Assembly: GCA_943354475.1 (NCBI GenBank)
Contig: CALRBT010000011.1
Coordinates: 1-33,104 of the forward strand
Direction: 5' to 3'
Length of the DNA: 33,104 nt
Origin: Parcubacteria group bacterium
GTDB lineage: Bacteria; Patescibacteriota; Minisyncoccia; Phycocordibacterales; CALRBT01
The first letter of the stretch is position 1; the number at the start of each line of letters is the position of its first letter. Positions 5,463 through 28,924 of the stretch are shown piece by piece. The notes beneath the pieces were generated by a model. The model had not been told where the DNA came from. It saw only the letters and a program-made list of their open reading frames with translations, and did not search any database. Made by a program: the position numbers and the translations under genes.

Positions 5463-5897
5463 ATGCTCATAGGTGAATACACACATGCAATAGATGACAA
5501 AAACCGGCTCTCCGTGCCGGCTAAGTTTCGTAAAGAACTTGGAGAGAAGATCGTGATTACTCCAGGATTAGATAATTGTCTGTTTGCATATACGCTCACT
5601 GAATGGGGTAAGGTTTCAGAAAAACTCTCAGGACTTTCCATGCTTCAGGCTGATACTAGAAGTTTTAATCGATTTATGTTTGCCGGAGCAGTTGAAGTTG
5701 AGGTAGATGCTAATGGACGCATTCTGATTCCGGAATTTCTCAAAAAATTTGCAGACCTCAAGGGAAAAGTAGTAATTACCGGTATTCATTCACGAGTAGA
5801 GCTCTGGAATGAAAAAGCTTGGATTGATTACAAGAAGCGGATTGAAAAACAAGCTGATCAGTTGGCAGAGAAGCTTGGTGAAATTGGCGTATTTTAA
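5463..5897 (+). CDS. mraZ: Division/cell wall cluster transcriptional repressor MraZ
   Basis: MLIGEYTHAIDDKNRLSVPAKFRKEL...VDANGRILIPEFLKKFADLKGKVVITG. Confidence 0.97.
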   Translation: MLIGEYTHAIDDKNRLSVPAKFRKELGEKIVITPGLDNCLFAYTLTEWGKVSEKLSGLSMLQADTRSFNRFMFAGAVEVEVDANGRILIPEFLKKFADLKGKVVITGIHSRVELWNEKAWIDYKKRIEKQADQLAEKLGEIGVF

Positions 5898-5898
5898 A

Positions 5899-6025
5899 TT
5901 AGAACATATGTATCTGGCAAATTTCTTTGTTAAAATCATCGGTTTCTCCCTCACCATACATTCAAGTATGGTTCAGTCCAAACCTCGATTTTGCCTCGAA
6001 CTTTACTCAGATACCTACGTTCTAA
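5899..6025. ncRNA. Structured 127-nt element, copy 1 (mraZ-rsmH intergenic)
   Basis: TTAGAACATATGTATCTG...CAGATACCTACGTTCTAA outer stem, apical hairpin CCATAC-attcaa-GTATGG; aligns without gaps to 9011-9137. Confidence 0.75.
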
Positions 6026-6032
6026 ACACAAT

Positions 6033-6971
6033 ATGATTACTTCAGCAAAACCCGTCATTTCAAAAATAAAACCAAGCGCTCACAAGAGCGTACTACTTGA
6101 AGCTGTTCTTGATGGATTGATGCTTAAAGAAAATGATGTGGTTGTTGATGGAACACTTGGAGGATGTGGTCACAGCCTCTCGATATGTGCAAAGCTTGGA
6201 TCAGATGGAGTACTCATTGGACTCGATCAAGATAGTGCGGTAATCAATCGGGCAAAAAAAGCATTTGAAGGGGTAAAACCAAAAGTTATTCTCCACATCG
6301 CTAATTTTCGAATACTTGATGAAGTTGTTCGTGGGGAGAAAATTACCAAGGTGGACAAAATCCTTCTTGATCTTGGTTTTAGTTCAGATCAACTCGATTA
6401 TTCAGGAAGGGGATTAAGTTTTCTCAGGGACGAACCACTACTCATGACATTAACCGATGAGGTAAACCAAAACCGATTTACTGCACGAGACATTTTAAAT
6501 ACCTGGGAAGAGGAGAATATCGCAACAATTATTAAAGAATATGGAGAAGAGAGCTTTGCAAAGAAAATCGCAAAAGCGATAGTGAAATCAAGGATTAACA
6601 AATCAATTGAGACGACGTTTGATTTGGTTGAAATAATCAAATCAGCAACTCCATCATGGTATCATCACCGAAAAACTCACCCTGCCACAAAAACTTTTCA
6701 AGCACTACGGATTACGGTTAATGACGAAATAGAGGCACTCAAAGAAGGACTTCTTAATGGTTTTAACGTGTTGGCACCAAATGGACGAATGGCAGTCATC
6801 TCGTTCCACAGTCTTGAGGATCGGCTCGTTAAACACTTCTTTAGAGAAAGGGTCCTGCTTGAGCAAGGGAAAATTATTACCAAGAAGCCAATCATTCCAG
6901 AGAGACTAGAGATACAGGAGAATCCCAGATCAAGAAGTGCCAAACTACGAATTATTGAAAAAACTAACTAA
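6033..6971 (+). CDS. rsmH: 16S rRNA (cytosine(1402)-N(4))-methyltransferase
   Basis: HKSVLLEAVLDGLMLKENDVVVDGTLGGCGHS... and ISFHSLEDRLVKHFFRE; likely start MITSAKP at 6033. Confidence 0.95.
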   Translation: MITSAKPVISKIKPSAHKSVLLEAVLDGLMLKENDVVVDGTLGGCGHSLSICAKLGSDGVLIGLDQDSAVINRAKKAFEGVKPKVILHIANFRILDEVVRGEKITKVDKILLDLGFSSDQLDYSGRGLSFLRDEPLLMTLTDEVNQNRFTARDILNTWEEENIATIIKEYGEESFAKKIAKAIVKSRINKSIETTFDLVEIIKSATPSWYHHRKTHPATKTFQALRITVNDEIEALKEGLLNGFNVLAPNGRMAVISFHSLEDRLVKHFFRERVLLEQGKIITKKPIIPERLEIQENPRSRSAKLRIIEKTN

Positions 6972-7301: not shown

Positions 7302-9014
7302 ATGAAGCCCCACTTACGAAGTAGGCTAAGAATAATTTCTATTACACTCTGTGCCGTAGCATTTATCTTTGTTATTGCGCTTTATTACCATCAGATTATC
7401 AGAGGAGATGTGTACAAGGATAAGGCAAATCATCAGTACATTAGGCCAAGTAAGGTCTTTGACCGAGGTGACATTTTCTTAACCCAAAAAGATGGAACAC
7501 TCATTACTGGCGCCGGCATCAAATCTGGCTTTGACCTTATTATCAATCCAAAAATTTTAGAAAATCCAGAAGACGCTTATAAAAAAATCAACGCAATTGT
7601 ACCCATTGATCGTGAGACATTCCTTGCTAAGAGTGCTAAAACCAATGATGTCTATGAAGAAATTAGTAAACGCTTGGAAGAGGTGGTCGCAACAAAGATT
7701 GAAGCTCTTGGAATTAAAGGAGTTAGTCTCTATAAATCTCGTTGGCGTTTTTATCCAGGCTCCTCTCTTGCCGCCCATGCGCTCGGTATCGTTAGTTTTA
7801 GTGGTAACACCCTTTCAGGAAGCTATGGACTCGAGCGTTACTATAACGACATATTGAGTCGAAACGATGATGGAACCTTCGCTAACTTTTTTGCCGAGGT
7901 ATTCTCCAATGTAAATAAAACTGTCTTCAAAGAAGGAGAACGCAGTCAAGGGGATATCGTCCTTTCAATTGAGCCTGCAGTACAGGCAAACCTTGAAGCG
8001 ACAATTGCTGAAATTCAACACACCTATAGTTCCGTACTCACTGGTGGGATTATTATTAATCCAACAAATGGCGAGATATACGCTCTGGCTATTAATCCAA
8101 CATTTGATCTTAATAATTTTTCAAAAGAAAAAAATGCAGCTGTCTTCTCAAATAATCTTGTTGAGCGTGTCTATGAAATGGGTTCTATTGTAAAGCCTCT
8201 TACTATTGCGGCAGGAATTGATGATGGGGTGATTACGGCAGAGACTACCTATGAGGACAAGGGATTTCTGATTCTTAACGGTAAGAAAATTTCAAATTAT
8301 GATGGTAAGGGGCGCGGCGTGATAAATATGCAAACAGTCTTGAATAATTCGCTCAATACAGGAGCGGCATTCGTTGTAACAAAGATGGGCAACGAAAAAT
8401 TTTCAAAATATATGCGTGCCTATGGACTCGGTGAGGAGACAGGCATTGATTTACCCAACGAAACACATGGATTGGTTGATAAAATTCTTGATTCACCTCG
8501 AGATGTTGAACACGCGACAGCTTCCTTTGGGCAGGGGATTGCGCTTACTCCGATTGAGACCGTCAGGGCACTCTCAGTCTTGGCAAATGGAGGTCATTTG
8601 ATTACTCCGCATCTTGTTCGTCAAACAAAATATACGTTAGGTATTACCAAAGACACAGTCTATGGCGACAGTAAGCAGGTGATAAAACCGGAGACCTCGA
8701 AGGAGATTGGTCGTATGCTTACTACAGTCGTAGACAAGGCTCTTTTGGGCGGAAAAATAAAGATGGAGCATTATAGTATTGCGGCAAAGACGGGGACTGC
8801 TCAAATTGCAAATCCTGCAGATGGCGGGTATTATAAGGACAGGTTCTTGCACTCATTCTTTGGTTACTTCCCGGTTAATAATCCAAAGTTTTTGATATTT
8901 TTGTATACGATAGAACCAAAGGGTGTTGAGTATGCGTCACACACATTGACGATGCCGTTTAGTGAGTTGACTAAGTTTATTATTAACTACTATCAGCTCC
9001 CTCCCGATAGATAG
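7302..9014 (+). CDS. ftsI: Penicillin-binding protein / peptidoglycan D,D-transpeptidase FtsI
   Basis: N-terminal TM, dimerisation region, transpeptidase motifs (EMGSIVKPLT, AAKTGTAQIA). Confidence 0.9.
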   Translation: MKPHLRSRLRIISITLCAVAFIFVIALYYHQIIRGDVYKDKANHQYIRPSKVFDRGDIFLTQKDGTLITGAGIKSGFDLIINPKILENPEDAYKKINAIVPIDRETFLAKSAKTNDVYEEISKRLEEVVATKIEALGIKGVSLYKSRWRFYPGSSLAAHALGIVSFSGNTLSGSYGLERYYNDILSRNDDGTFANFFAEVFSNVNKTVFKEGERSQGDIVLSIEPAVQANLEATIAEIQHTYSSVLTGGIIINPTNGEIYALAINPTFDLNNFSKEKNAAVFSNNLVERVYEMGSIVKPLTIAAGIDDGVITAETTYEDKGFLILNGKKISNYDGKGRGVINMQTVLNNSLNTGAAFVVTKMGNEKFSKYMRAYGLGEETGIDLPNETHGLVDKILDSPRDVEHATASFGQGIALTPIETVRALSVLANGGHLITPHLVRQTKYTLGITKDTVYGDSKQVIKPETSKEIGRMLTTVVDKALLGGKIKMEHYSIAAKTGTAQIANPADGGYYKDRFLHSFFGYFPVNNPKFLIFLYTIEPKGVEYASHTLTMPFSELTKFIINYYQLPPDR

Positions 9015-9137
9015 AACCCATGGATTTGGCGAATTTCGTTGTTGAAATCGTCGGTTTCTCCCTCACCATACGTTTAAGTATGGCTCAGTCGCAACCTAGA
9101 TTTCGCCTAGAACTCCGCTCAAATCCATGGGTTCTAT
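9011..9137. ncRNA. Structured 127-nt element, copy 2 (ftsI-murF intergenic)
   Basis: Perfect 18-bp outer stem ATAGAACCCATGGATTTG/CAAATCCATGGGTTCTAT, apical hairpin CCATAC-gtttaa-GTATGG. Confidence 0.75.
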
Positions 9138-9198: not shown

Positions 9199-10506
9199 AT
9201 GACCTTCCTTAAAGACACACTCAAGTTTATTGTTATATTCATTTTAACAATTGAGGCGCGACTAGTGCTGAAAAAGTATAAACCAAGAATCATCGCAATA
9301 TCAGGAAGTGTAGGCAAAACCTCGACCAAAGATGCTATATATACAGTACTTGAGAAAGAATTCTTTGTGCGCAAGAGCGACAAGAGCTTCAATGGAGATA
9401 TTGGAGTACCACTTACTATTTTAGGACTTTATAATGGTTGGTTTAGTCTTTCAATCTGGCTAAAAAATATAATCAAAGGACTACTCCTCATTATCTTCAA
9501 CGATCCCTATCCAAAAGTATTAGTCCTTGAAATAGGAGCGGATAAACCGAGAGAAATTGAAAAGATTGTTTCTTGGCTCAAACCAAATATTGCAATCGGT
9601 ACACGATTTCCAAAAATTCCAGTGCACGTCGAGTTCTTTTCTTCTCCAGAGGCGGTAAATGATGAAGATGCACTGGTGCTCAAAGCAGTAGTAAAAGGGG
9701 GAACGGCAATTTTAAATTATGATGATCTTGAAATGATGGAGTACAGAAAAGATCTCTCTCAAGAGATAGTAACCTATGGGATGAATGAAGGAGCAGACGT
9801 CAGGGGTAGTAATCCACACACGGTTTATGATAACGAAGGAAGACCAATAGGGATTGGCTTTACTGTGACTCATAAAGAAGAAAGTAAAGAAGTGATACTA
9901 AAAGGCGCACTTGGACTAACACACGTCTACCCACTCCTAGGCGCCATTGCTGTTGGTATCAAAGAGGGGATTCCACTTGAGATGATTACTCGGCGACTAG
10001 AAACACACACGAGTCCTCCTGGGAGAATGCATCTACTCGATGGTATCAAAGGAAGTTTGATTATTGACGATACTTACAACGCCTCTCCTGTGGCGATGGA
10101 ACAAGCAATAAGAACCATGGATGAGTTAGAACAAAAAGGTGGGCGAAAGATTTTTGCACTTGGTGACATGCTTGAGCTTGGTAGCTTTACCTTAAAGGAG
10201 CATACCCAAGCAGGGGAGAGGGTGGCAAAGGTCGCTGATATTCTGGTTATAGTTGGTGTTAGATCACGCAATATCGCTCAAGGAGCAATCTCTGCGGGAA
10301 TGCCAGAGTCATCTATCATGCAATTTGACGATTCTCGGAAGGCAGGAGAATATCTCAAGAATACAATTTCAAAAGGGGACACTGTGCTCATCAAAGGTTC
10401 GCAGTCAATTCGTATGGAACGCGCTGTGGAGATGGTAATGGCTCACCCTGAGGATAAAGAGAGTCTGTTGGTACGTCAGGATCCTGTGTGGCTGGGGATG
10501 AAGTAA
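9199..10506 (+). CDS. murF: UDP-N-acetylmuramoyl-tripeptide--D-alanyl-D-alanine ligase (Mur ligase family)
   Basis: SGSVGKTSTKDAI P-loop, IGVPLTILGL, DDTYNASPVAMEQAI. Confidence 0.88.
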   Translation: MTFLKDTLKFIVIFILTIEARLVLKKYKPRIIAISGSVGKTSTKDAIYTVLEKEFFVRKSDKSFNGDIGVPLTILGLYNGWFSLSIWLKNIIKGLLLIIFNDPYPKVLVLEIGADKPREIEKIVSWLKPNIAIGTRFPKIPVHVEFFSSPEAVNDEDALVLKAVVKGGTAILNYDDLEMMEYRKDLSQEIVTYGMNEGADVRGSNPHTVYDNEGRPIGIGFTVTHKEESKEVILKGALGLTHVYPLLGAIAVGIKEGIPLEMITRRLETHTSPPGRMHLLDGIKGSLIIDDTYNASPVAMEQAIRTMDELEQKGGRKIFALGDMLELGSFTLKEHTQAGERVAKVADILVIVGVRSRNIAQGAISAGMPESSIMQFDDSRKAGEYLKNTISKGDTVLIKGSQSIRMERAVEMVMAHPEDKESLLVRQDPVWLGMK

Positions 10507-15945: not shown

Positions 15946-16023
15946 GGAAAAGGGTATAGGGGTTAGGTGATAGGGACTAGGTGGAACAAAGTAAAGCCCC
16001 AGCACAGGCCGTAGGCCTGTGCT
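15946..16023. repeat. CCTA/TAGG-type degenerate repeats plus hairpin AGCACAGGCC-gta-GGCCTGTGCT
   Basis: agggaaaagggtataggggttaggtgatagggactaggtgg...cagcacaggccgtaggcctgtgctg. Confidence 0.65.
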
Positions 16024-21135: not shown

Positions 21136-21136
21136 G

Positions 21137-21238
21137 GAAAAGGGTATAGGGTTTAGGGGATAGAGAATATGGAATAAGGATTTTAGATTACAGATTTTGG
21201 TCTTGCTATAACCTAGCCCCTATAACCTAAACCCTAAA
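21137..21238. repeat. Opposed CCTA/TAGG-type repeat arrays between cysS and corA
   Basis: ggaaaagggtatagggtttaggggatag ... ctataacctagcccctataacctaaaccctaaa. Confidence 0.7.
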
Positions 21239-25138: not shown

Positions 25139-25185
25139 TTTCAAAACAAAAACCTCTCATGCTGTGAGAGGTTTTTGTTTTGAAA
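25139..25185. terminator. Bidirectional terminator
   Basis: TTTCAAAACAAAAACCTCTCA-tgc-TGTGAGAGGTTTTTGTTTTGAAA. Confidence 0.88.
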
Positions 25186-27033: not shown

Positions 27034-27070
27034 AAACAAAAACATCTCACAATGTGAGATGTTTTTGTTT
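27034..27070. terminator. Bidirectional terminator
   Basis: AAACAAAAACATCTCAC-aat-GTGAGATGTTTTTGTTT. Confidence 0.87.
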
Positions 27071-27088
27071 TAGGCTACTGTGTTTAAG

Positions 27089-28834: not shown

Positions 28835-28860
28835 ATACTAAGGAATAAAAGAGAAAACAA

Positions 28861-28890
28861 AAAAGACTCGGATTGCTCCGAGTCTTTTTT
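28861..28890. terminator. Intrinsic terminator (csp side)
   Basis: AAAAGACTCGGA-ttgc-TCCGAGTCTTTTTT. Confidence 0.85.
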
Positions 28891-28924
28891 GTTTTGTTCT
28901 GTAAGTTCCAGAACCTAACCTGAG

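Follow-up and report, generated by a model that had tools for sequence, protein, structure and literature searches.

What is a structured element of about 127 nucleotides doing twice among division and cell-wall genes of a Parcubacteria group bacterium, once between mraZ and rsmH and once between ftsI and a Mur ligase gene? The DNA analyzed is a stretch of 33,104 nt (contig CALRBT010000011.1, positions 1 to 33,104), which is referred to here as the window. A sequence-only reading of it favored a cis-acting RNA (leader, attenuator, or processing site) upstream of rsmH, possibly a CPR version of the mraW RNA, and named a structured DNA repeat as the alternative. The overall best explanation, which we regard as highly probable, is a non-coding mobile hairpin whose structure is selected on one strand and whose copies abut stop codons and are oriented with the replichores.

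The two copies and their neighboring genes

The segments at 5899-6025 and 9011-9137 align over 127 nt with 101 identities and zero gaps (pairwise alignment), exactly as had been counted by hand, and no other direct repeat in the window is comparable, the runner-up being 38 nt long. The distances from the first copy to the mraZ stop codon and to the rsmH ATG at 6033 also hold to within 1 nt. The features are listed below. The ends of the window copies were set from young copies in two related genomes (G023 and G219), and R1 is a covariance model built on the minus strand.

5463 to 5897, plus strand: mraZ (Pfam MraZ PF02381, E 2.1e-34), with its stop codon at 5895-5897, 2 nt upstream of copy 1
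5900 to 6024, minus strand (the strand with the fold under selection): copy 1 of the mobile hairpin element, with TAG...CTA ends (R1 match 5902-6021, minus strand, 118.4 bits)
5899 to 5916, plus strand: outer stem P1 of copy 1, arm 1 (partner 6008-6025)
6008 to 6025, plus strand: outer stem P1 of copy 1, arm 2 (partner 5899-5916)
6033 to 6971, plus strand: rsmH (mraW methylase; Pfam PF01795, E 2.9e-97)
7302 to 9014, plus strand: gene for an ftsI-type transpeptidase, ended by copy 2 (Pfam PF00905, E 5.1e-67)
9012 to 9014, plus strand: TAG of the element end serving as the ftsI stop codon (end of the ORF 7302-9014; element end placed by homology to young copies)
9012 to 9136, minus strand: copy 2 of the mobile hairpin element (R1 match 9014-9133, minus strand, 131.5 bits; minus-strand fold z -10.4)
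9011 to 9028, plus strand: P1 of copy 2, arm 1 (perfect 18 bp with 9120-9137)
9120 to 9137, plus strand: P1 of copy 2, arm 2 (perfect 18 bp with 9011-9028)
9199 to 10506, plus strand: Mur ligase gene (murF position; Pfam PF08245/PF02875), 3' of copy 2

Both strands of the copies fold far beyond shuffled sequences, and the minus strand folds best. On the plus strand, copy 1 reaches -33.6 kcal/mol (z -6.3) and copy 2 reaches -52.8 kcal/mol (z -7.8), with 0 of 200 shuffles as low in each case; the minus strand of copy 2 reaches -62.5 (z -10.4) and is thus better than its plus strand. The earlier description of the element was accurate and the compensatory changes that it listed between the copies are real, but the opposite strand is the more stable one. 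Copy 2 has the 18-bp outer stem that had been described for both copies in perfect form, and in copy 1 this stem is interrupted. The outermost T-A pair of the 127-nt segment lies outside the element proper, which is 125 nt long. The sequence of P1 differs among copies yet complementarity is kept.

Other repeats were observed in the window. At 2688-2745, a perfect inverted repeat of 28 bp with 2 nt between its arms (ATATAAATGCAGAAAACCCCCACGCGAT) exceeds the usual terminator length, and three terminator-like hairpins (25144-25181, 27034-27071, and 28858-28895) with the flanks AAACAAAAA/TTTTTGTTTT are similar enough to form one repeat family. A further short intergenic repeat family, GGGTATAGGG..TTAGG..GATAGGG / CCCTATAACCTAACCCCTA, has direct and inverted copies at 15946-15979, 21136-21169, and 21147-21236 and in the flanks of three element loci (L008, L038, and L039), and stretches resembling it are found elsewhere in the same genome.

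A dispersed family with pairing kept by selection on one strand

The genome that carries the window (786 kb, 98% complete) contains 37 matches to the element, 33 of them at E < 1e-6 (blastn and covariance model R1), and these copies are scattered singly beside unrelated genes. Of 41 genomes in the order, 17 carry the element, with at most 24 matches in any genome other than this one. In a phylum-wide sample of 240 genomes a second model (R2) detected it in 25; no more than 15 candidates per genome were scored there, so these copy numbers are lower bounds. The covariance-model search that had been proposed for this genome and other Patescibacteria therefore uncovered a dispersed family. No meaningful match was found in phage and plasmid collections (blastn), pattern scans of IMG/VR did not find the element, and no description of such elements in Patescibacteria was found in the open-access literature searched. 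Each copy is a non-coding, long imperfect hairpin of ~125 nt, or up to ~180 nt with an extra arm. Among the interiors there are several sequence types, all with the loops TTC[TG]AGGCG / CAAC[AG]A[AC]GAA and tandem G-A mismatches in common. Some copies (L004/L006 in this genome and L264-L269 in G219) have an extra hairpin arm where the inner helix meets the outer stem, for a total of ~150-180 nt.

Double-sided changes occur in 39 of 41 pairs across 105 aligned copies, and 87.8% of cells are paired compared to 34-42% after sliding the partners by 1 to 3 columns; no shuffle attains the observed values. Because the alignment used for counting was fitted to the structure model, the figures are tilted in its favor, but the contrast is very large. 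The structured repeat that had been offered as an alternative is thereby confirmed far beyond two copies, and the covariation persists once more copies are aligned. The strand opposite to the one first described, which is the antisense strand, is more stable in 177 of 185 family members with RNA parameters and in 180 of 185 with DNA parameters. Counted on this strand, G-U outnumbers A-C among the outer 12 pairs of P1, by 89:24 in the main set and by 48:7 in one genus (g28). A strand-neutral process would give equal numbers, so the G-U excess indicates that the fold of the antisense strand is the one that is kept; the usual leading-strand C-to-T bias would push the ratio the other way. Selection on one strand is shown to maintain the base pairing together with the purine-rich internal loops. 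Part of the P1 covariation could reflect the co-evolution of both ends as transposon termini.

Insertion, target sites and strand

In genomes with recent copies, the element inserts as DNA. In G023, 13 of 16 copies are flanked, in one fixed register, by a direct repeat with at least 5 of 6 bases matching (0.2 expected, z 8.5), and 8 of 10 of the near-identical copies in G219 have a duplication that matches to the same degree. The TAG...CTA ends of these young copies are thus bounded by target duplications of 5-6 bp, and since the T of the element end often accounts for the sixth base, the duplication is best read as 5 bp. It follows that the element transposes. The possibility that the outer stem is a pre-existing terminator hit by an insertion was ruled out because the target duplications lie outside the stem. 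G023 also contains other palindromes (L172 1434-1515 and L176 1385-1515) that have the same TAGGACTTACGC-type ends and an unrelated interior based on GTCATTCCCGCGAAAGCGGGAATGAC; these are a second element type and fit the view of the ends as transposon termini.

The copies in the window's own genome show target duplications no more often than chance would give, yet their stems have stayed intact (P1 is 85% Watson-Crick), so these copies are old or their flanks have eroded. Their transposition would follow from the behavior of the relatives and from empty sites. In four relatives located through RsmH (one titled Ca. Taylorbacteria), mraZ and rsmH adjoin or overlap with no element, and in the 3 of these with loci that reach that far, ftsI and the next gene adjoin without it.

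Sister species have several occupied junctions in common (e.g., L204/L225/L256, with flanking proteins 98-99% identical for L204 and L225). The copies at such junctions are no more alike than random family pairs (mean identity 0.576 vs 0.589), which rules out slow vertical evolution in place. Between L204 and L225 the element differs, while the gene side shows 97% identity and a downstream hairpin is nearly unchanged. At L209, a new copy is nested between the stop codon and an old copy, which in the sister species (L232) stands alone. The pattern is one of copies repeatedly inserted or replaced behind the same stop codons, though it may require no more than a restricted set of tolerated sites.

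The placement of the copies is one-ended. Of 120 copies, 62 have the 3' end of the folded strand directly against the stop codon of a gene that runs the opposite way, where 4.2 would be expected; in genus g28 the same holds for 45 of 65 copies, with 2.0 expected. The other end is so placed in 4 of 120 and 1 of 65. Combined, this gives 107 cases against ~6 expected and 5 for the other end, or about half to two thirds of copies; the expectation is from random non-coding sites in the same loci, with gene ends taken from simple ORF calling. The tendency is weaker in the young copies of G219 and G023 and sharper in old ones, and the element often supplies the stop codon of the gene itself, as with the ftsI TAG.

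The folded strand is mostly opposite to the neighboring genes, and in one complete genome it follows the replichores. In this single-contig genome (G043, in which three stretches of the sequence are N), the 16 copies lie on the plus strand at 10-180 kb, on the minus strand at 353-483 kb, and on the plus strand again at 624-691 kb, and these switches coincide with switches in GC skew. Across 16 genomes the folded strand has negative local GC skew in 157 of 184 copies, and of 105 pairs of adjacent copies, 83 agree in strand. Genes are strongly co-oriented with replication, so gene and fork are hard to separate as the cause of the strand bias; the cases in which gene and skew disagree favor the fork (18 vs 6).

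A copy that spread by transposition could have been domesticated behind the stop codon. ERIC insertions at gene 3' ends have an orientation-dependent effect on the mRNA (PMC2229807, PMC10969869), and on this model the element would be kept, in the mRNA sense, because it stabilizes, processes, or insulates the transcript. The one-ended abutment and its sharpening among old copies point in this direction, as do the stems that stay intact after the target duplications are gone and the filling of the same junctions in sister species. However, selection acts on the structure of the antisense strand, and copies at common junctions are replaced rather than conserved. An intrinsic terminator has a G+C-rich stem and a U-tract, and neither window copy is followed by a U-tract (ACACAATATG and TGTCGATTG follow). 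Domestication can coexist with the best explanation, and we consider it possible without expecting it.

Known repeats, rival readings and the proposed mechanism

The family is best read as a structure-constrained small palindromic mobile repeat of the ERIC/REP/Correia kind. Like a MITE, the element is short and non-coding with inverted ends, and it has target duplications in G023 and G219 that are not detectable in the window's own genome. Searches by end patterns in G023, G219, G259, and G200 found no autonomous element, including no insertion sequence with the same ends in the first two; the same-ended elements with a different interior are those of G023. The hairpin also resembles the integron attC site, an imperfect hairpin with a variable stem sequence of which one folded strand is recognized (recognition would be the inferred part here), but the element is scattered singly beside core genes and forms no cassette arrays.

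ERIC, Correia, and RUP have TA ends, target duplications, a long stem-loop, and a similar size (PMC2229807). Together with NEMIS, these MITE-like repeats (ERIC is 127 bp) share with the element a length of ~100-200 bp, the lack of a gene, an intergenic location, TA-ended inverted repeats with target duplication (PMC2229807, PMC10969869), and a single long stem-loop. The present element differs in that its arms vary freely yet stay paired, its fold is strand-specific with G-A loops, its stop abutment is one-ended, and a parent insertion sequence was not found. No similarity was found in the collections searched, ERIC being compared by description. Rickettsia palindromic elements are ~150-bp palindromes that likewise spread in reduced genomes (PMC10969869), but they integrate in frame within protein genes while the present elements lie behind stop codons.

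REP/BIME repeats are palindromes found between co-directional and convergent genes, and their termini often supply TAG stop codons (PMC3733652), as those of the element do. The element is 3-5 times longer than these 20-40 nt palindromes, has target duplications, and lacks the GTAG/CGTC tag, with no G preference before TAG.

Movement as single-stranded DNA by a RAYT (Y1 HUH) transposase would suit the hairpin, the strand-specific fold, and the replichore bias, and Y1_Tnp genes occur in many of the element-bearing genomes. They are missing from the window's own genome and from G005, G010, G031, G038, G200, G256, G149, and G107, the ends show no GTAG preference, and a 5-bp duplication is not expected of this enzyme class, which makes the reading unlikely. 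A retrotransposed structured RNA was rejected because reverse transcriptase (RVT_1) is missing from G043 (single contig), G152, G200, G256, G277, and G020. None of Y1_Tnp, DDE_Tnp_1, rve, and RVT_1 is present in all element-bearing genomes tested, and as each candidate is missing from several, the mobilizer would be some other enzyme or one that was lost in some hosts. A single reverse transcriptase domain was observed in the window's own genome (G000:C9:36354-36983, ~358 aa frame; possibly a diversity-generating retroelement), and of the 16 element-bearing genomes tested, nine others have one or two such domains.

A polar repeat guiding the replisome, segregation, or repair would explain the strand polarity, both across genomes and in G043. 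We find it very improbable as most genomes of the order lack the element, copy number varies widely, and the abutment of stop codons is left unexplained.

A cis-acting mRNA element serving rsmH and murF, for example a CPR version of the mraW RNA motif, is suggested by the stable conserved fold among cell-division genes and by the near-exact fit from stop to start, but is already contradicted and the least probable of all: Rfam has no match (gathering scores for the whole window, E values up to 5 for the copies; 13 loci), ~35 copies lie at unrelated genes, the same junctions are empty in relatives, and the selected fold is antisense to rsmH. The likeness to the mraW motif is thus confined to a position upstream of rsmH in this one genome; the element there is not conserved, and its strand is the opposite one.

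For the mobile hairpin, the following mechanism is proposed. An enzyme acting in trans would recognize the folded strand's hairpin, whether in single-stranded DNA, extruded DNA, or RNA, and move it, which would leave structure and not sequence conserved. The strand bias may arise from insertion at forks or from loss of copies that have the stabler hairpin in the lagging-strand template. The site just behind stop codons would be a tolerated (or preferred) landing place in a gene-dense genome, and genes may later adopt the TAG or TAA of the element as their stop. The window copies would then merely occupy the mraZ/rsmH and ftsI/murF junctions, and any effect on those mRNAs (e.g., RNase processing, as reported for similar repeats) would be secondary. 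A bolder proposal is that these mobile hairpins form a phylum-wide class and carry their information in the secondary structure of one strand. An enzyme outside the usual transposases would insert them during replication, strand-specifically and at or behind stop codons, and would repeatedly bring them back to the same gene ends; we put this forward as speculation and hold it to be doubtful as a whole.

The genomes of Patescibacteria are tiny, and the element is phylum-wide and multi-copy in them. The mechanism becomes testable through the near-complete covariation and the placement rule (one end at a stop codon, one strand with respect to replication), and the element provides a ready RNA/DNA model for the annotation of Patescibacteria genomes. 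If copies alter the mRNA ends or stop codons of essential genes (here ftsI), they would be a source of regulatory change in reduced genomes.
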